A stretch of 45,545 bases of DNA from a virus. The notes beneath the pieces were generated by a model. It saw only the letters and a list, made by a program, of their open reading frames with translations, searched no databases and was not told where the DNA came from. Numbering within the stretch: the stretch's first letter is position 1; every line of letters starts with the position of its first letter. Where the stretch lies: positions 1-45,545 of the IMG/VR virus record IMGVR_UViG_3300021961_000167. The stretch is one strand, 5' to 3'. Below, one piece after another: positions 4,102 to 18,150 of this stretch. The translations under genes and the position numbers were made by a program.

Positions 4102-5115
4102 TTACCATTCAGTTGCGTAGTCTAAATTGACTACTGACATATTACATTTAGTCTTACATTCCACCCAGGGGAAAATTTCAAACCGTTCTTCCCAGAATTT
4201 ATCTTCAAGAACCTCTGTCAACGCCCGTTTATTAAGGTCAAAACTATTACTCAGTTCAGACCATTCATTATTATGATTGTACCTATTTGCTACCCAACAA
4301 CAAGGAAGTAAACGACCTTGACTGTTTAGGAACAAGCCTTTATTGCCAATACTACATAAAGGTTTGATGTCTCCATAGGTTTTAGATTTTTCGTATAATT
4401 CAACGTTGGTTTTGTAACCTACTGTGCTAGGCTGTCTGCCTGATAGGTTAAGGACTTCACGTGTAAATCTATACTTATCGCTGATATTAGGAGTACTAGG
4501 TTGTAGTGGATCGTTTTTAGGGTATATAGGATATACCTGATTAAATTTTGTACTACGAGTTATTTGAAATTCATCAAACCCTAGGTGCTCAGCCTGTGCT
4601 TTCATAGTATCTAGGTGTTCTTCGTTAAATTTAAACACTATACAATCCCAAGTCATGTATACATCGCTAACCTGTCTAAGTGTTTGTACACCTAATATAA
4701 TACTGTCCCAATTAGAGTTTACTCTATACTGTTCGTTACTTGCTTGGTCCCAGCCATCTAAACTAAAGTGTATGTGATCATTTTCATCTAATACACTACC
4801 AAGTTGAAGCCACCAGTCTGCTTTTTTGTAACTACCGTTAGTAACAATAACAAACTTAACTGGTTTAATTGATTTAAAATATTCAATAACATCAACAAGA
4901 TCGTGTGCATATATAGGATCTCCGTCATCACCACAGAATGTAATCTTTTCTACATTGTCACGTATAAAGTCAGGAGTAAAATTCTTTTTGAAAAAGTCAA
5001 GTCTAAGCTCAGTATTAACTAATGTTTCTGGAACTTCTTCTCTAGCACACCTAGGACACTTTAGTGTACATTTACTAGATATTTCTATATGCCAATGCCA
5101 GGTTGCTAGTTTCAT
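4102..5115 (-). CDS. Radical SAM protein (first of an adjacent pair)
   Basis: 337 residues. The cluster C16-TLK-C20-PR-C23 binds the 4Fe-4S cluster that cleaves S-adenosylmethionine. FCGDDGDP supplies the GGE-like SAM-binding segment, and HFSLDGWD a further core strand. A C-terminal region with C-SIGNKG, then LLPCCWV, then CKTKC looks like a SPASM/twitch-type auxiliary cluster domain, as in peptide- and protein-modifying enzymes. The ATG overlaps the stop of the upstream radical SAM gene (ATGA), so the two are probably translationally coupled. It sits in the recombination/early operon. The substrate is unknown. Candidates are a small peptide, a host protein or a virion protein; nothing in the sequence decides this. 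Confidence 0.88.
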   Translation of the reverse strand: MKLATWHWHIEISSKCTLKCPRCAREEVPETLVNTELRLDFFKKNFTPDFIRDNVEKITFCGDDGDPIYAHDLVDVIEYFKSIKPVKFVIVTNGSYKKADWWLQLGSVLDENDHIHFSLDGWDQASNEQYRVNSNWDSIILGVQTLRQVSDVYMTWDCIVFKFNEEHLDTMKAQAEHLGFDEFQITRSTKFNQVYPIYPKNDPLQPSTPNISDKYRFTREVLNLSGRQPSTVGYKTNVELYEKSKTYGDIKPLCSIGNKGLFLNSQGRLLPCCWVANRYNHNNEWSELSNSFDLNKRALTEVLEDKFWEERFEIFPWVECKTKCNMSVVNLDYATEW

Positions 5116-6008
5116 TTAAATTCAACCTCGTGTTGCCATTGTCCTGTAAAACTAGTAACTTCTTCAACAGATCTACAAGTTGTATAACACATATCGTTGG
5201 GTTGGTCAGTTTTCCAAGATTGTTTAATAGTTTCAAATTGATCAATAGAATTATCTGTAATACCCAAATAACAACAAGGATATATAACACCTTCTGCTGA
5301 CATGTATCTACTTTGTTCGTTTAGTGCTTGACAGGAAATATTACCAAACCTTACTGTTGGATTTTTCCAACCTTTTGGTGGATTTAAAAACTTAACAGGA
5401 TTAATTTCATGGCGTCTAGTAATTTTAGCTCTAAACCATTTAAATCCTAAATCACGTGCTAGTTGTTCACACGCATTAACTTGATGTTCGTTGTGTTCAA
5501 ACACTAACATATCCCAATGAGCTCGACCTCCAGCTTTGATAAATGTCTGAGCATTTTCAATAACTTTATTCCAATTTACATTTATCCTATAGATATGGTT
5601 AGTGTCCTCTAGTCCATCAATACTGAACACGCTGTAATCTTTTTCAGTATTTAATATGATACCTAATTCATGCCACCAATCCTGATCACGCAGTCCGCCG
5701 TTAGAATTCATTCCTAAACTAATACCTGGATTAACTGTTCTAAAGTAACGATAAATGTCTAATGTGTGTTTGCCAGCGGCTGGATCACCATAATCGCCAC
5801 ACATAAACATTTTGTCTAAGTTACTGATAATGTCATCACCTAACTGTTTACGTATTTGCTCTATAGTTAAATGATGTAGATTTTTTTTATCAAACGATGT
5901 ATCTGTTTCTCTAGAACATTGTGGACAAGCCGCATTACACGCATCTGTGGGTTCTAGGTGTAATATTTTAAACGGAGTCAACATCTGTGCCATATGTAGT
6001 AAAGCCAT
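5112..6008 (-). CDS. Radical SAM protein (second of an adjacent pair)
   Basis: 298 residues with C24-NAA-C28-PQ-C31, the radical SAM cluster motif. MCGDYGDP is the SAM-binding segment, FSIDGLED a core strand, and the C-terminal VIYPCCYLG plus later MCYTTC is a likely auxiliary cluster domain. It is clearly related to its downstream neighbour, with the same CGDxGDP and CC arrangement, so the pair arose by duplication or works as partners. The longest frame overlaps the 3' end of gp46 by 41 nt. Internal ATGs at residues 6 and 9 give smaller overlaps, and the strong homology-like region begins only at about residue 11, so the true start may be MLTPFK. No strong Shine-Dalgarno distinguishes them. 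Substrate unknown. Confidence 0.86.
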   Translation of the reverse strand: MALLHMAQMLTPFKILHLEPTDACNAACPQCSRETDTSFDKKNLHHLTIEQIRKQLGDDIISNLDKMFMCGDYGDPAAGKHTLDIYRYFRTVNPGISLGMNSNGGLRDQDWWHELGIILNTEKDYSVFSIDGLEDTNHIYRINVNWNKVIENAQTFIKAGGRAHWDMLVFEHNEHQVNACEQLARDLGFKWFRAKITRRHEINPVKFLNPPKGWKNPTVRFGNISCQALNEQSRYMSAEGVIYPCCYLGITDNSIDQFETIKQSWKTDQPNDMCYTTCRSVEEVTSFTGQWQHEVEFK

Positions 6009-7737
6009 TTTCTTTTGTAACTGTCATAATATTGTTAACTCGTCCTGACAGTTCGTCTTTGTGCGATACTAACCAAATACTCTTGTTTTGTTCACGTGAC
6101 ATCTTTTTAAGTATTGCAAGGGCACTTTCTACACCACTAGCATCCATACCTGAATCAATAAGTTCGTCAATGAATAACAAGTTAATAGGGTCGTAGAGGC
6201 TTTCATAGACATCTCTGAAACTCCATGACAGTGAAAGTATCAGTCTATTACGTTCACCTCTACTTAAATTGTCAAAATCTAACTCACGGCCAAGCTCTGT
6301 AATTTCCACTGACAGATCGTTTAGGAAGGTAACTGTGTGTGGCAGTCCGATTCTGTCAAGGTAATAACTTAGCCGTGCGTTTAGATAACTGAGATTTTGA
6401 TCAATTATTCGTTTTCTAATAAAGGAGTCTTTATTAGTTAATAGTTTTTGTAAAAATTCTTGATGTTCTCTTAGTTTAACTAGAACATTAATTTCATTAT
6501 AGTCTGGGTCTTGTGTTGAACTTTCTTCCATTTCTTGTATTTGCTCAACATAAGGATCTTCTTCTTGTTCTTTTGATGTTAATTGTGCTTTTAGTGTAGT
6601 AATTGAATTTTTATGTTCAAAAGCATCTGACTCGTTAGCATAAAAAACTTCAGGAGCAAAGCCTACGTCACCAAGCTCTGTTAATGCGTCTGTGAGTTGC
6701 TGTAAGGTCGCTGTGTGCGTGTTTACATCTTCCTGCACCCTGACTAGCGTGGCTTGTTTTTCTTCTAGCTGTGCTTCGTGTTTGTCGTCGTGTATTTCTT
6801 GTCCACAACTATGACATTTATGTTCTTTTAGTAACTTGATGTCTTGTTCTAATTTAACTATGTTGCCTTGTTCACGCTTAAGATCACGCTCTGTTCTCGT
6901 AATAGCATCAGTGATGTCATCATGATCTTTTTTGTTTTGTTTAAATTTGGTTAATTCTTTATGACTTGCTAGTTCTTGATCAATATCAATCTTTTCTAAT
7001 TTTTCAATGGCCGCATTTAAACTATCTATGTCTTCTTGTTTTTTGTTAGCCCATAGAGTCTGTCTACGCTTCATTGACTCTACTTGTTCTTTCATTTTTT
7101 CATTAGCATCTTTAAGAGCTTCAATTCTTATTTCTTCTTCTTTAATCCTATCTCTGGTTTCTTTTAACCGTTCTTTAAGATTGTTTGCTTTTTCTGAAAG
7201 TAAGGTAATACCTAATAACTGTTCAATAATGTCTTTTTGATCGTTTGCTCTTAGATTAAGGAATGGTTCTGTGTAAGTGTTTAATGCTACTAAATGCTTG
7301 AACATCTCATGACTCATGCCCAGCATTGATTCAATAGCTTTTTGTGTTTCTCTACTATCGCCTTGTGCCATGTCTGTGATTTCTTGTTCTTCATCACCTA
7401 CATAAAAACGCATAACATTTTTCTTACGCCCACGCTCTATTTTATATGTTTGTCCATTGTGTTCAAAGTCAAGACTAACTAACATGCCCTTTGCGTTAGT
7501 TTTGTTGATTAAGTTATCACGTTTAATGTTAGTTAATGCTTGACCAAATAAAGCATAAGAAAGGGCATTGATGATAGTGGTCTTACCGGTACCATTCCTA
7601 GCGCCACTATCATCGCCTCCAAGGTCAATGTTAACACCAAGAACCAGTGTTAAGTCTCTGCGATCAAAGTTAACTGCTTGTGTGGCATTACCCACACTCA
7701 TAAAGTTTTTAACTGTTAGATTTTTTAGTTTGAACAT
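5968..7737 (-). CDS. 46: Recombination endonuclease subunit gp46 (Rad50/SbcC-like)
   Basis: 589 residues with the full SMC/Rad50 layout: Walker A GARNGTGKTT (about 45-54); a long coiled coil interrupted near residue 306 by the zinc hook CHSC; the ABC signature LSRGERNRL (about 490); Walker B LLFIDEL with D-loop SGMD (about 517-527); and the switch histidine in LVSHKDE (about 557). With gp47 it forms the ATP-driven nuclease that processes DNA ends for recombination-dependent replication and host DNA breakdown. The length is normal for T4 gp46 (560 residues). Two SGNH-like genes separate it from gp47. Its start overlaps the preceding SGNH gene by 29 nt. Confidence 0.96.
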   Translation of the reverse strand: MFKLKNLTVKNFMSVGNATQAVNFDRRDLTLVLGVNIDLGGDDSGARNGTGKTTIINALSYALFGQALTNIKRDNLINKTNAKGMLVSLDFEHNGQTYKIERGRKKNVMRFYVGDEEQEITDMAQGDSRETQKAIESMLGMSHEMFKHLVALNTYTEPFLNLRANDQKDIIEQLLGITLLSEKANNLKERLKETRDRIKEEEIRIEALKDANEKMKEQVESMKRRQTLWANKKQEDIDSLNAAIEKLEKIDIDQELASHKELTKFKQNKKDHDDITDAITRTERDLKREQGNIVKLEQDIKLLKEHKCHSCGQEIHDDKHEAQLEEKQATLVRVQEDVNTHTATLQQLTDALTELGDVGFAPEVFYANESDAFEHKNSITTLKAQLTSKEQEEDPYVEQIQEMEESSTQDPDYNEINVLVKLREHQEFLQKLLTNKDSFIRKRIIDQNLSYLNARLSYYLDRIGLPHTVTFLNDLSVEITELGRELDFDNLSRGERNRLILSLSWSFRDVYESLYDPINLLFIDELIDSGMDASGVESALAILKKMSREQNKSIWLVSHKDELSGRVNNIMTVTKENGFTTYGTDVDSV

Positions 7738-8440
7738 ATTCGTACATTAAATTGGCCATGTGTTGATGGCCTTCTTCTAAGAAGTGTCCTCCTAGTCCTG
7801 TAGGAAACTGTTGACATAATTGTCTAAGATACCACATATCGTTATTTGGACTATAAAATTTACTCCAGTCTATTAAGCTATAATAATAATGTATTTCTTC
7901 CACTTCTGCAAGTTTTTCGGCATCAGACTTGTGTTCTAACACGCGAAAATCTTTAAGATATTGCAGTATAGGACTTGCCTTCCAAAGTTGTATCATACCA
8001 TCGAACGTATGAATCATTAGATAGTTTTTATCTTTTAATAAATTCTGACAGTGTATTATCTGCTGTAAAAAACGTTTAAAGTTGTACTGACTGTTACACC
8101 ATTCAGCATATAAAGTTCTACCCCAATCCCAGAAGAAAGGCTCTTTGCCAAACACAGGATGATGTAATGTAGGAACAAATGCTACTTCTTCTTCAGATTC
8201 GTCAGCACGAACAAATGTATATCTTCCTGGCTCACTCCAGGATATAAAATAAAAATCAAAGTCTTTGGCAAAGTGTCTTGTGGTATGAAATAAGATACGC
8301 TCATTGCTAGAACCACTCATTGAAGTGTCTACCATTTCTGCACCAAGTTTTTTTGCCAATAAGTTAGGCCAACTTGAAACAGTACGATCTTTTAATTCGT
8401 CGCCGTAGGTAAAACTATCACCAGTTACATATATTTTCAT
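7709..8440 (-). CDS. SGNH-hydrolase-like protein A
   Basis: 243 residues. GDSFTYGDEL at 7-16 supplies the nucleophile-type Ser9 of the GDSL/SGNH family. SGSSNERI supplies a block III Asn (residue 46). Near the C-terminus LEEGHQHMA supplies an acid and the catalytic-type His225. Family members remove acyl groups from lipids, polysaccharides or peptidoglycan; others are inactive. It is paralogous to the next upstream gene, which it overlaps by four bases (ATGA). Its 3' end overlaps gp46. The position between gp47 and gp46 is unusual because these normally act as one nuclease. Activity and substrate are not shown by the sequence. Confidence 0.75.
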   Translation of the reverse strand: MKIYVTGDSFTYGDELKDRTVSSWPNLLAKKLGAEMVDTSMSGSSNERILFHTTRHFAKDFDFYFISWSEPGRYTFVRADESEEEVAFVPTLHHPVFGKEPFFWDWGRTLYAEWCNSQYNFKRFLQQIIHCQNLLKDKNYLMIHTFDGMIQLWKASPILQYLKDFRVLEHKSDAEKLAEVEEIHYYYSLIDWSKFYSPNNDMWYLRQLCQQFPTGLGGHFLEEGHQHMANLMYEYVQTKKSNS

Positions 8441-9186
8441 TGGTTTTTATTATAAAAGTTAATTAATTTATCTGCAATAGCATTGTGCCCATCTTCTAAA
8501 GGATGTCCACCTTTACCAAATTGAAACTCTTTGTTGCAATCAGTAATGCACCATTGGTTAAAATCTAAATAATATGAATAATCAATCATTGATAACAGTG
8601 TTTGTATATTATTATATTCAGCAAGTATTTGATCATCATTGAGATAATCAAAAAAATCTAATAATGGCTTAACATTAAAAATAAATTTATCTTTAGGACT
8701 AGTCCATTTTTCTAAATTGTTTTCTACAGCATTCAACATAATGTATTTTTTATTTTGTTTTTCAAAAACTGACTGTAAAAGTATTATTTCTTGTAGCCAT
8801 TTTTTAAATTCATATAACTCATTATGCCAATGTGTGTAATAAAGTTTTCCATAATCATAATATTTTTTATAGTTTTCTTTTAAATCATTACTTAAATGTA
8901 AAGATGTTTCTAAATTTAAGTTAGGAGTAAAATTAATTTCAAAATTATCTACAGGATTATATTCAGTAAATCTATTATAATTGGTCCAGGCAATTATAAA
9001 GTATTCATACTCATTTAAATTTTGTACTGTACGGTATACAATTCTTTGATTTGATCCTCCAGACTCTGCATCATTTACAAACTCTAATCCAAGTTTTTTA
9101 GACATCACTGCCGGAAATGCTGTTGTTTTTGGATCAGTTAATTCATCTCCTTTGGTAAAACTACATCCATTAAAATATAATTTCAT
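8437..9186 (-). CDS. SGNH-hydrolase-like protein B
   Basis: 249 residues, sharing with protein A the same frame of motifs: GCSFTKGDEL (Ser9; Cys replaces the usual Asp before it), SGGSNQRI (Asn46) and GGHPLEDGHNAIAD (His234 near the C-terminus). The two are diverged tandem copies. The middle part is unusually rich in Lys, Asn, Tyr and AT-rich codons compared with neighbouring genes, suggesting faster divergence or separate acquisition of this copy. Its ATG overlaps the gp47 stop by one base (TAATG), so it is coupled to gp47. Hydrolase activity is inferred from the family only. Confidence 0.72.
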   Translation of the reverse strand: MKLYFNGCSFTKGDELTDPKTTAFPAVMSKKLGLEFVNDAESGGSNQRIVYRTVQNLNEYEYFIIAWTNYNRFTEYNPVDNFEINFTPNLNLETSLHLSNDLKENYKKYYDYGKLYYTHWHNELYEFKKWLQEIILLQSVFEKQNKKYIMLNAVENNLEKWTSPKDKFIFNVKPLLDFFDYLNDDQILAEYNNIQTLLSMIDYSYYLDFNQWCITDCNKEFQFGKGGHPLEDGHNAIADKLINFYNKNQ

Positions 9187-11289: not shown

Positions 11290-12666
11290 ATGGCATACAG
11301 ATATGAAGATGGTATTGGATGGGTCTCTTATGACGAAAATGCTAATCCTACCATAGTAACACAACAGATTAATGTAGGCGAAGAGCCTGATTTTACTGAT
11401 AGAACTACTGCGGGTCCTGCTGGTGCAGAGTTCTCACCTACTGAATATAGTTTACTTAAAAGTGAGGAAACCCTAGCACCAAACTTTCAGGTAGACCGAG
11501 GTCTAGGACAATCTAGTTCAAATGTAGAATATACAGGTGCAGTTCCACAACCTAATTTTGCACCAGTAGAAACTAATGATTCAGCAGTTACTTATGGTGA
11601 ACCTATAGGTCCAGACTTTACTGGCGTAGGCACAGGCAGTCAAGTACCTGGCGACCGTGCTATTACAGGTCCATCTGAGCAAATAGGTCCACAATTTGGT
11701 GCTGGCGAAACACGTGGTACAGGAACCATTGGTGGCGATGCCGCTATTACAGAAGGACAACCTATAGGTCCAAACTTTAGTAATCCTACAGGCACAGGAC
11801 CTGAAACACCCGGCGGTGGCGGATGGTCACCTGAAGAAGTACAGGTTGCCCGACAATCAGCACCAGCAGTTCCACAACGTCCATTAACAGAAGATTGGCG
11901 GTTTAGAATTGGACTAATGCCTGGCAGTGAAGTATTATATAAAGATGGTGACTCTTCAAGTTTACTATCTCCATTGTTGGCCACAGACGGTGTTATATTT
12001 CCATATACTCCAACTGTTATGGTTAATCATCGTGCTAACTACGATAAAATATCACCAGTACATTCAAACTATCCAACATACTTTTATCAAAGTTCAGAGA
12101 TCAGTGATGTACAGGTTAATGCTACATTTACAGCACAGTCAACAGAAGAAGCAGACTATATGATGGCTATGATACATTTCTTCCGTTCATCAACCAAAAT
12201 GTTTTATGGACAAGATGCTAACAGAGGAACACCTCCACCATTACTAGCATTAACTGGTTTTGGACAACATCAGTTTAATTTTCATAAAGCAGTGTTAACA
12301 CAATTTAACTATGCACTACCTGATGGTGTTGATTATATTAGAACAAGTGCAGGCGGAGTTGGCAGTATACAAGCACAGTCATCAAGGGCAAATTTACAGG
12401 GCGGCAGTGGCAACTTTGGTATATTTGGTATTGCATCACGTATTGGTAGACTATTTGGTATTGGTGCCACACCTGGAGCAGAAGTACAATTCCAAGCCGC
12501 AAACGAAGGAACCAACCTAGCAAGAGCTGGTGCAAGTTATGTGCCAACTAAAATTGAAATTAGTTTAACCTTGTTACCAGTTGTTACAAGAGCAGAGCAA
12601 AGTCGACAATTTAGTCTTAAAGACTACGCATCTGGTAAAGGATTATCACAGAGAGGACAATGGTAA
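11290..12666 (+). CDS. Baseplate tail-tube cap/junction protein (gp48/gp54-like) with repeat-rich N-terminus
   Basis: 458 residues in two parts. Residues 1-190 are Gly/Pro/Thr-rich with about seven copies of a [IA][GP]P[DNQ]F-type motif (for example PDFTD, APNFQV, QPNFAPV, IGPDFTG, IGPQFGA, IGPNFSN), interspersed with VPGDRAIT-like elements. Residues about 195-458 form a folded core with LTEDWRFRIGL, GVIFPYTPTVMVNHRANYD, a pattern of alternating strands, FFRSSTKMFYG and YVPTKIEISLTLLPV. This resembles the tail-tube cap (gp48/gp54) proteins of marine T4-like phages, which end the baseplate and start the tube. The N-terminal repeat region is an addition and recurs in the 979-residue hub-like protein. 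Whether it is gp48 or gp54 cannot be decided here. Confidence 0.75.
   Translation: MAYRYEDGIGWVSYDENANPTIVTQQINVGEEPDFTDRTTAGPAGAEFSPTEYSLLKSEETLAPNFQVDRGLGQSSSNVEYTGAVPQPNFAPVETNDSAVTYGEPIGPDFTGVGTGSQVPGDRAITGPSEQIGPQFGAGETRGTGTIGGDAAITEGQPIGPNFSNPTGTGPETPGGGGWSPEEVQVARQSAPAVPQRPLTEDWRFRIGLMPGSEVLYKDGDSSSLLSPLLATDGVIFPYTPTVMVNHRANYDKISPVHSNYPTYFYQSSEISDVQVNATFTAQSTEEADYMMAMIHFFRSSTKMFYGQDANRGTPPPLLALTGFGQHQFNFHKAVLTQFNYALPDGVDYIRTSAGGVGSIQAQSSRANLQGGSGNFGIFGIASRIGRLFGIGATPGAEVQFQAANEGTNLARAGASYVPTKIEISLTLLPVVTRAEQSRQFSLKDYASGKGLSQRGQW
11380..11785 (+). repeat. PDFTP-type repeats in the tube-cap-like protein
   Basis: Seven loosely spaced copies (mostly 17-27 residues apart) of a P-[DNQ]-F core with a following VPG..AIT-like element, diverged from each other at DNA level. 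The core phrase GGTCCAGACTTTACT recurs at about 11609 here and at about 13270 in the gene at 12970. Confidence 0.75.
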
Positions 12667-12968
12667 TGGCCGCAAAATACTCACCAAACTCACCTTATTT
12701 TCAAACACCTAAAACAGAAGGATATTTGGACGTCATGACTGATCGTCCTATCCCTAAACAAAACGATGATCAGATTATTGAAATTAATCAAACATATCAA
12801 TATCGTCCAGATTTATTAGCCAATGACTTATATGGTGATCCAGGATTATGGTGGGTGTTTGCACAGCGTAATCCAAATGCAATTAAAGATCCAATCTGGG
12901 ATTTTCGTACAGGCATTAAAATTTATCTTCCTAAAATAACAACATTAAAAACAGCATTAGGATTGTAA
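12666..12968 (+). CDS. 53: Baseplate wedge protein gp53-like
   Basis: 100 residues. The motif set YRPDLLANDLYGDPGLWWVFAQRN, then IKDPIWDFRTGIKIYLP, is the short LysM-like core found in gp53-type wedge proteins of T4-like phages. T4 gp53 (196 residues) has additional domains that are absent here. The start is taken as ATG 12666, overlapping the upstream TAA, because GAGAGGA at 12651-12657 lies 8 nt before it; an ATG at 12660 would leave only 2 nt. It is followed after one base by the next gene. In T4 gp53 links wedges into the ring. Confidence 0.78.
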   Translation: MAAKYSPNSPYFQTPKTEGYLDVMTDRPIPKQNDDQIIEINQTYQYRPDLLANDLYGDPGLWWVFAQRNPNAIKDPIWDFRTGIKIYLPKITTLKTALGL

Positions 12969-12969
12969 G

Positions 12970-15909
12970 ATGCCAACTATAACTGAAGTACTTCAAAGGC
13001 AGACTGGTGCTATTCGAGGAATGGACAATGCCAATGCACGTGCAGATCGTGTACTTGCTAATCCTGACAGCACAAAACAAAATTTTTACAACGCTAAAAA
13101 TGATGTGCGTGTTGCCAGTCAAGAAGGACGCAACGCAAGATACGAAGCAGAAGTATTTCAAAGATCAAACATCACAGAGTACGACAGTGAAATAACAACC
13201 AATAATGAGTTGATCCAACAAAGACGTCAAGAAAGTTATCAACGTATTACACAGTTAGACAGCAAAATAGGTCCAGACTTTACTCCAGTGGTAGAACAAG
13301 CAGGAGTAGGTGGTGACACTGCTATAACAGGAACTGATGACGCTGTTGCTCCTGACTTTACTCCAATTAGAGGAGAAACACAAGGTGCTACATCCTCGGG
13401 TAGTATAGTTGACAACGAAGCTCAAGCAGGTGCAGACGGTGCAGGAACACAAACACCATATCCAAGTCACTTAACAAATCCAGCTGGACAACCAGTTACT
13501 GAATCAAATGCTGATTTAATACCAACGTCACCATATGGCACAACCGCGGCGGCTCCGGTAACTCCTGATATTCTAATCGGAGGAAAAGTTTCTCAAGATG
13601 ATACTGCTGATATTGGTAACAATCAGTTTACTCAATCAACAAACGGTGGAGTATCTACAGCAAAAGCATTTTCTGAAAAGTTTAGTCCGCAATTAAATCC
13701 AACAGCAGAGTTTGCACAGTTAACTTATAATATAGCATTGTATCTACAAACTCCTGAACAGTATAAAAGAATGGTGGTTGAACAAACTAAAAGTACACAA
13801 GGTCTCAAAAAAATTCTACAAAGCGGCGGCAACAGTCAAAATGAAGATGTAATTTTTCCAGACTTGTATATTAATGATTTAGAAGTTGAAACTCTAATGG
13901 ACAGTATGACACAGTCACCGCACAATGTAGTACAGCTAAGATTTAACATCATTGAACCAATGGGATATACATTCTTTAAAAAACTAAGACAGTTATGTCA
14001 CGAAAATGGAATGACAGAAATTGCTAAACAACATTATCTTATGGTTATTAAGTTTAAAGGCTTTGATGAAAACGGTAAAGAGTTAAGTGATAAAGATGAT
14101 AATCGTTTAACTAAGTTTGTACCATTTACTTTTAGTAAAATTTTAACTAAAGTCCATGAGGGTGCAGTTACCTACGATTGCCAGGCGATAGCACATAATC
14201 ATCAAGTTGGTTTATCTGCTAAACGAGCAACTATACCTTTTAATGTTGAACTAGTAGGGCAAACATTGGGAGACATGTTTAATGCTAGTGTAAACCTAAC
14301 AAGGAATCCAGCAAAATCTACAAGTCAAACAACAGCAACATCACCTTTTGGCACAACAGAAACCACAGTTACCCCAGGTATACTTAAAGGTAGTGCTACA
14401 GGTACACCTCAACAAAGCAAAGGCATTATTGATGCGTTAAATGAACAACAGAAAAAGTTAGCCAAAGAAAACGGATATAAACACGCTGACAAGTATAAAG
14501 TTACCTTTAATGGCGATATAGGTAAAGCAAAATGTATTTCTAGTGATACACTGTTAAAAGTTAAAAGTAAAACACCAATGAGTGCCAGTGCAAGTGCCGC
14601 GGCCAATGCTTTACTAAATTCTATGACTATGGATAAAACAAGACAGATTTATTCAGTAGCACCAATGCCATTACATCAGTTTATTGATATTATGGTTAGG
14701 TCAAGTGATTACATTACTAAACAACAAACACATATTATTGATCCAAAAACAGGTAAAACAAAACCTAATCCTGCACAGAATAAATTTTTACAATGGTATC
14801 ACATTGGCATTAGACTACTACCAATTGAGTGGGACGAAAAACGTGCAGACTATGCTTATGAAATAGAATATATTGTTTCGCCTAAACAAATTGCAGACAC
14901 GTATTCTCCATTCTTTCCTAAAGCACCATTGAGAGGAGTACACAAAACTTATCAATATTGGTTCACAGGTGAGAATACAGAAATATTAAGTTATGAACAA
15001 GAACTAAATGCAACATACTTTGTTGCTATGGACGGAAGAATAGAACAACCAGATCAACAGATCACAGAGGAATCCCAAAAATCAACACCAAAAGCATTTG
15101 TAAATAAATCTGGATCCAGTGGTCTAGGACAACCTGGCGATAATGCCAGTGCGGCAATGCAGGCCGCTGATGTGATTTATTCATCAGTAGACTTCCAAAA
15201 GTTTAATATGGAAATTATAGGTGATCCAGATTACATTCAACAAAATGATATATTGTATACCAGTGGCGATACTTATGAGCCATTTTTAGCAGATGGTTCT
15301 ATCAACTTTGATGCCAGTGAAGTATTTGTTGAAGTAGGATTTAAAACAATGGAAGACTACAACGCACTAACCGGTGGAGCTGATCTTAAAGATCCAACGT
15401 TTATTGATGGTGCTGGCAACAGTAGTACAAAGTTAATTTATAAACTAACTAAAATAATGTCTAGATTTGCTGACGGTAAAATGACTCAAAACATGGAAGG
15501 ACTACTACGTGAATTTGACGAGGAAGAATCCCAACAAGAACAACAAAGAGAAGAGCAGGTTAAACAACCATTTGTAGGTCCAAAGCGTAACGGAAATGCA
15601 GTTCCTGGACAACAAGCAATAACAGAAGGCAGTAACAAACATGCTCCAGACTTTACTCCAGTATCGATTAAAGGTAATAAAGTACCTGGTGAGGCCGCTG
15701 TCACACAAAATTCAGATATTGCTCCAGACTTTACACCCATTGGTGTAGCACAAAACGGCCAGGGCGTTTATGACACTGCTGGTCCTATAGGACCTAACTT
15801 TGCACCAATAGATAACGGAAACAGTGTTCCTGGACAACGAGCAATAACACCAGATGACCCAACTGCCCCTGACTTTTTACCCATCAGAGGCGAAACACAA
15901 GGTAATTAA
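12970..15909 (+). CDS. Large baseplate hub-like structural protein with PDFTP repeats
   Basis: 979 residues. Residues 1-90 are charged and helical, and 98-135 carry two PDFTP units. From about 225 the protein is globular: FSPQLNPTAEFAQLTYN, VIFPDLYINDLEVETLMDS, NVVQLRFNIIEPMGYTFFKKLR, FVPFTFSKILTKVHEGAVTYDC, then a second half with QIYSVAPMPLHQFIDIMVRSS, YEIEYIVSPKQIADTYSPFFP and RGVHKTYQYWFTGENT. The C-terminus (about 850-979) is a charged coil followed by four more PDFTP units. Similar large proteins sit before gp5 in marine T4-like phages and are annotated as structural. The position just before gp5 suggests the gp27-type hub that carries the spike. It shares RGETQG with the N-terminal RGQTQG of the next protein. 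The gp27 identity is inference. Confidence 0.7.
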   Translation: MPTITEVLQRQTGAIRGMDNANARADRVLANPDSTKQNFYNAKNDVRVASQEGRNARYEAEVFQRSNITEYDSEITTNNELIQQRRQESYQRITQLDSKIGPDFTPVVEQAGVGGDTAITGTDDAVAPDFTPIRGETQGATSSGSIVDNEAQAGADGAGTQTPYPSHLTNPAGQPVTESNADLIPTSPYGTTAAAPVTPDILIGGKVSQDDTADIGNNQFTQSTNGGVSTAKAFSEKFSPQLNPTAEFAQLTYNIALYLQTPEQYKRMVVEQTKSTQGLKKILQSGGNSQNEDVIFPDLYINDLEVETLMDSMTQSPHNVVQLRFNIIEPMGYTFFKKLRQLCHENGMTEIAKQHYLMVIKFKGFDENGKELSDKDDNRLTKFVPFTFSKILTKVHEGAVTYDCQAIAHNHQVGLSAKRATIPFNVELVGQTLGDMFNASVNLTRNPAKSTSQTTATSPFGTTETTVTPGILKGSATGTPQQSKGIIDALNEQQKKLAKENGYKHADKYKVTFNGDIGKAKCISSDTLLKVKSKTPMSASASAAANALLNSMTMDKTRQIYSVAPMPLHQFIDIMVRSSDYITKQQTHIIDPKTGKTKPNPAQNKFLQWYHIGIRLLPIEWDEKRADYAYEIEYIVSPKQIADTYSPFFPKAPLRGVHKTYQYWFTGENTEILSYEQELNATYFVAMDGRIEQPDQQITEESQKSTPKAFVNKSGSSGLGQPGDNASAAMQAADVIYSSVDFQKFNMEIIGDPDYIQQNDILYTSGDTYEPFLADGSINFDASEVFVEVGFKTMEDYNALTGGADLKDPTFIDGAGNSSTKLIYKLTKIMSRFADGKMTQNMEGLLREFDEEESQQEQQREEQVKQPFVGPKRNGNAVPGQQAITEGSNKHAPDFTPVSIKGNKVPGEAAVTQNSDIAPDFTPIGVAQNGQGVYDTAGPIGPNFAPIDNGNSVPGQRAITPDDPTAPDFLPIRGETQGN
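13261..13374 (+). repeat. PDFTP-type repeats, N-terminal pair in the hub-like protein
   Basis: Two units, IGPDFTPVV and VAPDFTPIRGETQG, about 26 residues apart, separated by a GGDTAITG element. Confidence 0.8.
15592..15906 (+). repeat. PDFTP-type repeats, C-terminal array in the hub-like protein
   Basis: Four units at about residues 891, 918, 940 and 966: APDFTPV, APDFTPI, IGPNFAPI and APDFLPIRGETQG. Each of the first, second and fourth is preceded by VPGxxA[IV]T, and the third by a diverged linker. The array ends exactly at the protein C-terminus. Confidence 0.85.
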
Positions 15910-15915
15910 TAGAGT

Positions 15916-18150
15916 ATGGCTGAAGATCACATAAGAAGTAGAGGACAAACACAAGGATACAAGCACGGCACTGGTAATCAGATGCCAGCTACTCCTGGTC
16001 CGTATATAGGCATTGTTAAAAACAATATTGATCCAACACGAGCCGCTCGATTACAAGTATACATTGAGCAATTTGCTGGTCCAAACAAAGAGGATGAAGC
16101 AAACTGGAGAACAGTAAATTACTTGCCTCCATTTTTTGGATCAACTGAACACTCAGGAGCCAAACAAGGTACAGGTTCTTACATAGGCAATAAACATTCA
16201 TATGGTATGTGGTTTACTCCTCCAGACATTGGAACAAAAGTATTATGTTTCTTTGTAGCAGGTGACCCAAATCAAGGTTACTATGTAGGGTGTATTCCTG
16301 AAGACAGTCTAAATCATATGGTGCCTGCTATTGGTTCAGCAACCACATACCTAGCCGGCGAAGAAGCCAAACCTTTTGTTTCAGGTGCTAGTCAGGTTCC
16401 AGTAACTGAAATTAACAACGAAGATCCTACAATCAATGATGATCCGCAATTTTATAAAAGAGAAAAGCCAGTACACAAGTATCTAGCGGCCAATCTGTTT
16501 AGTCAAGGTCTTATTAAAGATAATGTTAGAGGACCTATTACATCAACAGCACAGCGTGAATCGCCCTCAAATGTATTTGGAGTAAGCACACCTGGTAAAC
16601 CTATCTATGCCAAAGTCAAAGGTGATGATGTACAAGAGATTAAAGAAAAACTAAAAAGTGGTGACTTAAAATCTGAAGATATCAAAGTTGTTGGCAGAGA
16701 AGGTGGACATAGTATTGTTCTTGATGATGGTGACATTGAAGGTAAAGATCAACTAGTAAGAATTAGAACAGCACAAGGTCATCAGATCTTAATGAGCGAT
16801 GACGGTGAATGTTTACATATTATTCATGCCAATGGTCTGTCCTGGGTTGAACTAGGCAAAGAAGGTACAGTAGATGTATTTTCAACTAATTCAATTAACA
16901 TGCGTACTCAAGGTAGCATTAACTTTCATGCTGACAAAGACATTAATATGTACGCAGGCAGAAACATAAACACACGCAGTTTAAATTCAACAACAATTGA
17001 AGCACAAAATGAAATGTTAGTTACTGGTCTTAACTATGCTAGTGTTTACAGTAAACAACTTGTAGCTGTACGTAGTGATAATACCACTGCTATTGATGCC
17101 GCCAAGTACGGAAGTTATACCGGTGGCGATAAGATAGACGTAAAAGCAGGTATTGTTAATCTAAACAACGGCGGTGGCATTAATGTAACTCCAAATAGAT
17201 TAATTAAGAAAAACAAAGTTAGTGATGCTGTTTATAATAATGGATGGCAAGCAGAGTACAGCAAACTTGAAACTATTGCAACTAGAGTACCACATCACGA
17301 ACCATGGCCATATCATAACCTAGGTGTTGAAAATTCTGTAACACAAGGCACGCCTCCACAAAAAGCACTAAATCCTGCTGTGGCAGTTGTTTCAAATCAA
17401 GTAGCAAGTAAGGCACCTACTAATCCAATTACTACAACAGATTATGCCAAACAAGCACAGGCAACAAAAAGCATTGGCAGTCTAGATCAAGACCAAGCAA
17501 CAGGTATGTTAGCACAAAAAGCTAAAGATGTTGGCCAAGCGGCTAATATAGTAAGCCCTGATAAAGGTATAGGATCTTATGGCATTTCAGCAAAACAATT
17601 AGAAGAAACAGGATACCTAAAACCAGGCACAGCGGCTAAGTTCCTTAAAGATCCTTCTGCTCTAGTAACAGATGGATTTGGCAATCAAACTACACAGTTA
17701 GAAGCGGTGCTTAAAAATACAAATGTATGGACTGGCAAGGGCGGAACCAACAACCTAACCGAGTTCTTAAAAAATCCATCAACACAGTCAACTGCCATGG
17801 AAGATATTTATAGTTCAAGTTTATCACAATTAAAATCTCGTGGACTAGTAACAGGCGGCGAATCACCTGAACAACTTAGTGGATTACTACAAGCAGGATC
17901 AACTTATGGTGTTGATGCTGTTCAGGAATGGACCAAGGGCGGTGGCAATACGATAATCAACGCAGGGATTGAACAAACAGCACGTAATGCACAGTATGCT
18001 ACTAATTTAGTTGAAAATAAAATTGCTAATTTAAGTAAGAGTTATGGTAACCCAGGTGGCTTTGCTAACACAGTTGATGTGTCTGCAGTGCTTAATTCTG
18101 TTAATAAGATTACAGGAGATGTGCGTATTAGGAAGCCAAAATTCTTCTAA
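15916..18150 (+). CDS. 5: Baseplate central spike protein gp5-like
   Basis: 744 residues. Residues about 28-150 match the gp5/VgrG OB-fold domain (GPYIGIVKNNIDPTRAARLQVYI, WFTPPDIGTKVLCFFVAGDPNQGYYVG). Residues about 255-390 (IVLDDGD, LVRIRTAQGHQILMSDDG, then short strands with INMRTQGSINFHADKDINMYAG) form the repetitive beta-helix needle. Unlike T4 gp5, no T4-lysozyme-type domain lies between OB-fold and needle. Instead a C-terminal region (about 545-690, GIGSYGISAKQLEETGYLKPG and onward) may be a substitute cell-wall-acting or binding domain, as in relatives from marine phages. The spike pierces the outer membrane. It starts 6 nt after the hub-like gene. Confidence 0.85.
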   Translation: MAEDHIRSRGQTQGYKHGTGNQMPATPGPYIGIVKNNIDPTRAARLQVYIEQFAGPNKEDEANWRTVNYLPPFFGSTEHSGAKQGTGSYIGNKHSYGMWFTPPDIGTKVLCFFVAGDPNQGYYVGCIPEDSLNHMVPAIGSATTYLAGEEAKPFVSGASQVPVTEINNEDPTINDDPQFYKREKPVHKYLAANLFSQGLIKDNVRGPITSTAQRESPSNVFGVSTPGKPIYAKVKGDDVQEIKEKLKSGDLKSEDIKVVGREGGHSIVLDDGDIEGKDQLVRIRTAQGHQILMSDDGECLHIIHANGLSWVELGKEGTVDVFSTNSINMRTQGSINFHADKDINMYAGRNINTRSLNSTTIEAQNEMLVTGLNYASVYSKQLVAVRSDNTTAIDAAKYGSYTGGDKIDVKAGIVNLNNGGGINVTPNRLIKKNKVSDAVYNNGWQAEYSKLETIATRVPHHEPWPYHNLGVENSVTQGTPPQKALNPAVAVVSNQVASKAPTNPITTTDYAKQAQATKSIGSLDQDQATGMLAQKAKDVGQAANIVSPDKGIGSYGISAKQLEETGYLKPGTAAKFLKDPSALVTDGFGNQTTQLEAVLKNTNVWTGKGGTNNLTEFLKNPSTQSTAMEDIYSSSLSQLKSRGLVTGGESPEQLSGLLQAGSTYGVDAVQEWTKGGGNTIINAGIEQTARNAQYATNLVENKIANLSKSYGNPGGFANTVDVSAVLNSVNKITGDVRIRKPKFF

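Follow-up and report, generated by a model that had tools for sequence, protein, structure and literature searches.

In known contractile tails the hub and the tube initiator adjoin each other and sit inside the baseplate wedges, and in T4 each of the two is present in 3 to 6 copies. PMC11054660 calls the route of phage DNA through the periplasm and inner membrane after contraction essentially unknown; it reports entry of the gp27-bearing T4 tail tip into the periplasm and cross-linking of gp27 to DamX, SdhA and PpiD, the latter a rare clue on this passage. Two further papers describe binding of a T4 spike fragment to PpiD (PMC7600766) and a disordered N-terminus from which pyocin S2 displays its TonB box (PMC10994204).

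The window analysed here, a whole virus record of 45,545 bases, has a gene order like that of RaK2-like jumbo myophages. The 46- and 47-like genes and a late sigma factor lie on the minus strand ahead of the tail genes, which follow in the order gp48-like, gp53, hub, gp5, gp25, gp6 (Table 1). The hub gene is immediately upstream of gp5 and near gp53, gp25 and gp6, and the order gp53-hub-gp5 is also found in RaK2, PBECO4 and GAP32. An earlier note on this DNA had described a peptide repeat shared by the gp48/54-like protein and the hub, and this repeat is indeed present in both, at a frequency far above that of shuffled sequences. It comprises about 13 units of the form [IA][GAP]P[DNQ]F, often with VPGxxAIT before them, seven in the gp48/54-like protein and two plus four in the hub.

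Table 1. Positions of the two repeat-bearing genes, their parts and repeat units, and other features of the window.
Feature	Position in window	Strand	Residues	Remarks
Radical-SAM-type pair	4102-6008	-		adjacent genes
DUF6071-matching pair	7709-9186	-		adjacent genes
gp48/54-like ORF	11290-12666	+
gp48/54-like N-terminal arm	11290..11886	+	1-199	predicted disordered; seven units
P[DNQE]F units, gp48/54-like ORF	11386, 11479, 11551, 11611, 11689, 11770			translation, six-frame scan
Seventh gp48/54-like unit, AEFSP	11425			read from translation
VPGxxAIT-type octamers, gp48/54-like arm	11644, 11728
gp48/54-like folded core	11887..12663	+	200-458	phrog_12050, virion structural protein
gp53-like baseplate wedge subunit	12660..12968	+		between the two repeat-bearing genes; phrog_7145, E 3e-27
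Hub ORF	12970-15909	+
Hub N-terminal three-helix bundle	12979..13269	+	4-100	joined to the core through the linker with the repeats
Hub linker	13261..13653	+	98-228	two units; predicted disordered from 109
Hub units near N-terminus	13273, 13351
VPGxxAIT-type octamer, hub linker	13306			VGGDTAIT
RGETQG, hub linker	13369
Hub folded core	13687..15519	+	240-850	T4 gp27 / Pvc8 / VgrG-type hub fold
Hub C-terminal arm	15574..15906	+	869-979	four units; low pLDDT, predicted disordered; ends in RGETQG-N
VPGxxA[IV]T octamers, hub C-terminal arm	15601, 15682, 15826
Hub units at C-terminus	15646, 15724, 15793, 15868
gp5-like hub/spike protein	15916..18147	+
RGQTQG of gp5	15940-15957			not a repeat copy (see text)
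ORF of 4,954 amino acids	21990-36854	+		downstream of gp6

The three arms, 366 residues in total, contain P[DNQE]F 12 times (0.34 expected from 5,000 shuffles, maximum 4) and the joined unit, VPGxxAIT with PDF 3-9 residues later, six times, the latter being absent from all shuffles; both patterns were defined after the units had been seen. Local alignment of the gp48 arm with the hub C-terminal arm scores 97 (shuffles 42 +/- 7, maximum 71), that of the hub N-terminal with the C-terminal repeats 111 (shuffles 30 +/- 5.5), and a 40-residue block, IGPDF..VPGxxAIT..APDF..(R)GET[QR]G, is common to all three. From one PDF unit to the next the distance is 60-93 nt in gp48 and 69-78 nt in the hub arms, and a spacing of 78 nt occurs in every one of the three arrays. 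Tandem Repeats Finder lists no array in the DNA that encodes the repeats of the window; the similarity of the peptides has therefore outlived that of the DNA. The gp53-like protein encoded between the two carriers is without a unit in the six-frame scan.

The RGQTQG of gp5, which the earlier note had listed with the repeat, was rejected as a further copy, and gp5 as a third carrier, because it belongs to the conserved gp5 N-terminus (e.g., SRGRPQNYKPDRGGVPAEFGPF in relatives; near relatives have KGQTQG, RGTPKG and RGKTKS in its place). Two other interpretations of the units were likewise dropped. The contiguous pentapeptides of an elastin-like VPGXG repeat do not occur, VPG being present at most once per unit of the window, and just two units fit what we take to be the consensus of the prohead-protease site, the carriers being tail proteins. 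Elsewhere in the window, the single ORF of 4,954 amino acids takes up a third of the total length and has marginal matches only, to FG-GAP and CBM_5_12. The proteins of 243 and 249 amino acids encoded between the 46-like and 47-like recombination genes match DUF6071 (E 5.3e-5, below the cut-off, and 1.2e-10), the first being also weakly GDSL-like, and the radical-SAM-type pair (E 3.4e-6, just below the cut-off, and 3.9e-9) is situated beside the 46-like gene.

Structure prediction indicates that the repeats form disordered arms added to ordinary folded cores, of a tube initiator in one protein and of a gp27-like hub in the other. No family matched either protein in a Pfam search, and a PDB sequence search returned nothing for the gp48-like protein and nothing usable for the hub. 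In the AlphaFold2 models, single chains built on alignments of 47 (gp48) and 35 (hub) sequences, residues 1-200 of the gp48-like protein have block mean pLDDT values of 38-64, and its core is confident from residue 200 apart from a low-confidence loop at about 351-412. Residues about 200-445 of this core match PVC 6j0n_b (VIA Z 10.9, 156 residues, rmsd 3.7) and T4 5iv5_BE (VIA Z 9.6, 139 residues, rmsd 3.6). The hub starts with a confident part (residues 1-100, block mean pLDDT 88-98), followed by residues 109-228 with pLDDT <50, and its core matches cyanophage A-1(L) 8kea_A (VIA Z 14.0), 7b5h_AJ (Z 13.5) and T4 gp27 1k28_D (VIA Z 11.5, 286 residues, rmsd 4.5). All units fall in low-confidence parts but one, the first of the two near the hub N-terminus, which borders the helix bundle. 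By their predicted folds, the two proteins are neighbours at the distal end of the tail tube. The helix bundle of the hub resembles by eye the helix-rich-looking N-terminal extension in the rhizobial jumbo phages Phosso (L011) and Atu_ph07 (L012), where it is carried by gp48 instead of the hub.

Substitution patterns indicate that the repeats of the window are under purifying selection. For the hub C-terminal arm, dN/dS is 0.18 against the related locus L028 and 0.21 against L030 (hub core 0.10 and 0.18). The gp48 arm (residues 22-180) has values of 0.20-0.45 compared with 0.07-0.14 in the gp48 core, and those of the short repeat stretch near the hub N-terminus are 0.24-0.41; saturation of synonymous change made two of the hub values for L032 unusable. 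Motif positions of the gp48 arm are more conserved than spacers in three of four relatives (p 0.013, 0.002 and 0.0012) and not significantly so against L028 (p 0.16). In the hub arms this applies to one of three relatives (p 0.014), the difference for L030 (p 0.08) and L032 (p 0.38) not being significant. Taken together, dN/dS values of 0.18-0.45 and the greater conservation of motif over spacer positions in the gp48 arm suggest that the residues themselves matter.

The units of the window are confined to two genes and to its close clade. All 24 matches of the joined unit in 894,639 residues from 202 loci are located in hub or gp48, and five loci carry them. The first scan yielded nine relatives, among which the arms of four are only partly readable: L003 and L007 start inside the hub, L009 is without gp48, and L010 contains just the last part of gp48, with its hub spread over two frames. 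Units are present where arms of the close clade can be read, though in dwindling number. The N-termini of the L008-L010 hubs are without a PDF unit, and L031 carries three near-perfect VPG-led units in gp48 and none in the hub; two of the three are near-identical in DNA and therefore recently duplicated. Searches of whole records with the hub C-terminal arm found it in nine of nine close records and in none of eight named jumbo phages (RaK2, PBECO4, GAP32, PA5oct, Atu_ph07, Phosso, SCTP-2 and Vibrio phage 2.275.O). A second search covered five records, three of which had been included before; it gave two matches in the L031 record, both in gp48, and none in that of L033. In the named phages, tblastn gave no match for the gp48 arm and weak matches for the hub C-terminal arm (E 0.4 to 10, the best in Otagovirus hypothetical proteins), which were taken as chance. 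Scans of a viral collection with DNA patterns, which need exact codons and missed known carriers, returned two stretches without a matching frame and then none; they are therefore no argument against further carriers.

These losses bear on the proposal of the earlier note that proteins meeting in the hub dock through the shared repeat. A handshake between gp48 and the hub themselves is not required, because L031 has gp48 copies and no hub copy, and the hubs of L008-L010, which are devoid of an N-terminal PDF unit, weaken it further. The note had also held that disorder of the repeats without any binding pocket, or their absence from related phages with the same hub, would speak against docking. 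AlphaFold2 does predict the units to be disordered, and they are missing from the eight named phages, which encode the related proteins in an unchanged order. However, the same protein pair shares an unrelated peptide family in about ten loci, so that absence of the sequence is not absence of the arrangement.

The latter is evident from the wider family. Three scans with gp48-core alignments each produced at least 599 pattern matches, 590-594 of them confirmed, from which the best 80 were kept each time; judged from these scans the gp48-core family is large, and a portion of it was sampled. The 203 sequences obtained (202 loci plus the window, 201 with a recognisable hub, 145 non-redundant by gp48 core) appear to derive from environmental, aquatic jumbo phages, and in most of the loci examined gp48 and the hub bear long arms whose sequence is specific to the lineage. 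The length of the gp48 arms is between 18 and 670 residues (median 245), and the medians for the hub N- and C-terminal arms are 103 and 121 residues, all being lower bounds where contigs end in the arm. The gp48 cores have a mean identity of 58% in 200 random pairs. Internal repeats were detected in 28 of the 63 gp48 arms of the first set compared with 1 of 63 shuffled arms, and arm peptides such as LSDEEILARQNAGG, YPPNPVDVAREQALISDAEA, TTDSxGNxxxxGxLYRAAEVD and DPNTNVG are lineage-specific. The gp48 arm of L117 has about nine near-identical copies of a unit of about 32 residues (DPTGVLAAEDAALAEQAAAQGDADAFA), probably helical, and the L117 hub has a different repeat family. All three matches to the hub repeat in the 342-kb record of L117 are within the hub gene coordinates, one of them in a different open frame.

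Sharing between the gp48 arm and a hub arm of the same genome was found in 13 of the 145 non-redundant loci by 6-mers (permuted mean 2.4, maximum 9), in 10 by 7-mers (0.4, maximum 5) and in 9 by 8-mers (1,000 permutations, mean 0.2, maximum 2), and was weak by 5-mers (15/63 own against 8.9 permuted, maximum 18). BLAST revealed arrays common to both proteins in L163, L035/L115, L220, L091, L102, L173, L056 and the window. A 7-mer in common with the gp48 arm of the same genome is present in 15 of 200 hub arms, 1 of 194 gp5 proteins, none of 202 gp53 proteins and 2 of 1,834 other ORFs, both of the latter being situated between gp53 and the recognised hub ORF. At the level of exact peptides, then, sharing is specific to the gp48/hub pair but not universal, most loci having no common exact 7-mer.

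TonB boxes of receptors are located shortly before the plug. In several lineages, hub N-terminal arms and gp48 arms of the relatives contain peptides like LPEVTVTATR, LEEVVVTGKR and PEIVITADR, for which E. coli BtuB offers DTLVVTANR for comparison. A 10-mer matrix of 50 bacterial receptor boxes, picked by eye, from other Pseudomonadota as well, was built after the phage peptides had been seen and applied to 675,710 ten-residue positions in plus-strand ORFs of at least 100 residues from the 202 loci, which are related to each other. At the receptors' lower quartile (15.07, here 15.1) it yielded 21 unique matches (hub N-arm 10, gp48 arm 8, gp48 core 2, hub core 1) and none in 395,114 positions of other ORFs. 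At a cut-off of 12 there were 43 (18, 13, 3 and 5, respectively, with 4 in other ORFs). At this cut-off 37 of 592 arm pieces match, compared with a mean of 3.3 (maximum 8) after shuffling, and twelve column-permuted matrices gave 0-5 unique arm matches against 27 for the real one (hub-bearing loci, counted by 10-mer). A TonB-box-like arm peptide is carried by 8 of the 145 non-redundant loci at 15.07 and by 17 at 12. Of the 28 loci whose hub N-arm matches at 12, 26 have the box 11-23 residues ahead of the core. We interpret this, at the sequence level, as an indication that arms of sibling phages carry TonB-box-like peptides ahead of a folded domain, the alternative for those before the hub core being a conserved structural strand. 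A 7-mer matrix built earlier, from Enterobacterales receptors only, showed no arm enrichment (4 pieces compared with 6.1 in shuffles). Co-occurrence of such peptides in gp48 and hub of the same phage has a p of 0.003 over 201 loci and is not significant after redundancy removal (2/145, p 0.09).

The units of the window itself were rejected as TonB boxes, the best 10-mers scoring 3.9 in gp48 (core) and 4.8 in the hub (N-terminus) compared with 11.4 for the leave-one-out 10th percentile of the receptors. L156, L157 and L158 carry a peptide of the LEEVTVTGKR type not only in the gp48 arm and the hub N-arm but also within the gp48 core, close to core residue 163. A complete-looking TonB-dependent receptor with a signal-like N-terminus (Plug E 2.6e-15, beta-barrel E 3.2e-27) is encoded at L371:7254-9629, near ClpX- and ClpP-like genes, in the 333-kb jumbo phage record (G018) that also contains L182; it is either phage-borne or misassembled.

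Disorder, constraint, pair-specific sharing, lineage-specific sequence and the TonB-box-like peptides of siblings lead us to favour, tentatively and somewhat short of calling it probable, a reading of the units as short linear docking peptides on disordered arms at the tube tip, the target of which is probably a host envelope protein. The proposal of a docking peptide in the earlier note is thus kept as the best reading, in that the carriers are neighbours, share a flexible repeat and are under selection, and given up as to mutual docking. The architecture and the sharing are established, and to these we add partner, function and timing by inference. Upon sheath contraction and passage of the tip through the outer membrane, the arms would reach the periplasm; dozens of units per tip, a copy number taken by analogy with T4, would bind a host envelope protein with high avidity. 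The arms would act like the disordered N-terminal regions with which colicins and pyocins present TonB boxes, and their lineage-specific sequences would reflect different host partners. By the matrix test, binding of the putative partner to the window's units would not involve a TonB-box-type sequence. Against the docking reading, units are lost from at least one arm in L031 and L008-L010; the array is therefore not essential in every arm. The low TonB-box scores of the window's proteins, the many loci that share no exact 7-mer (all but 10 of 145) and the non-significant motif conservation against L028 in gp48 and against L030 and L032 in the hub also count against it.

Alternatively, the units may dock within the virion, binding a phage protein (tape measure, wedge, spike or chaperone) as assembly tethers that hold the arms of hub and initiator on the same partner. 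The folds of proteins that are neighbours in known contractile tails, the 40-residue block in two hub arms and one gp48 arm, and the specificity of sharing to this pair are all in line with such tethers, which we nevertheless regard as rather unlikely: a conserved internal partner should keep its peptide, but the peptide varies among lineages in which the cores remain alignable (58% identity), L031 is without any hub copies, and the eight named phages are without units. It is also unlikely, in our view, that the arms are mere flexible spacers or an entropic brush, low-complexity sequence grown by duplication and gene conversion in which only flexibility, length or hydration counts and the two adjacent genes have sequence in common just because stretches were copied between them. 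The wide range of gp48 arm lengths with little sequence conservation across lineages, internal repeats that allow ready expansion and the recent duplication in L031 would agree with this, but dN/dS of 0.18-0.45 and the conserved motif positions of the gp48 arm in three of four relatives do not, nor do peptides whose similarity has outlived that of the DNA in the absence of a Tandem Repeats Finder array, or the excess of TonB-box-like pieces in sibling arms (37/592 compared with 3.3 shuffled). Adhesion before contraction, with units on the baseplate exterior binding cell-surface sugars or proteins, would suit lineage-specific sequences, multivalency and arms that have no confident position in the AlphaFold2 models; we deem it very unlikely, since in known contractile baseplates the wedges enclose both hub and tube initiator, and no Pfam family matches either protein.

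If docking to the host envelope is extended to the wider family, aquatic jumbo phages might have bacteriocin-like docking arms at the tube tip that show host-specific motifs to the periplasm, TonB boxes in some lineages and, in that of the window, a VPGxxAIT/PDFTP array for another envelope protein. We consider this generalisation doubtful. If true, the TonB boxes of some lineages would couple the incoming tail to the TonB-ExbBD motor. Long, selected, lineage-specific arms at the tube tip lead to a testable hypothesis, that the tip hooks host envelope machinery via short motifs, and the arm peptides would provide a readable signature of host specificity in uncultured phages as well as bait peptides. 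In the open-access literature searched we found no TonB-box or disordered repeat arms on a phage tail hub or baseplate.

The hub of the window is like T4 gp27 and its relatives (Pvc8, VgrG, Mu gp44 and the A-1(L) hub) in its core fold. Unlike T4 gp27, whose chains in the PDB have 361-375 residues compared with 979 in the window, it possesses an N-terminal helix bundle, a disordered linker of 120 residues and a C-terminal repeat arm of 110 residues. The gp48/54-like protein, with its gene beside gp53, likewise shares the core fold of the tube initiators T4 gp48/gp54 and Pvc7/Afp7 and differs from them in its disordered N-terminal arm of 199 residues with seven units. The eight named jumbo myophages, RaK2-like and others, have a homologous gp48-like core and a gene order similar to that of the window; in six of them the gp48-like protein has 211-245 residues and no arm, and in the two rhizobial ones it bears an arm of another, helix-rich-looking kind. 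T4 gp27 contacts host envelope proteins, according to PMC11054660. Colicins and S-type pyocins (PMC10994204) are like the phage arms in that a disordered region presents a short peptide that must reach the periplasm, whereas in the phage of the window the carrier is a structural protein of the virion and not a toxin, and its units are not TonB-box-like.
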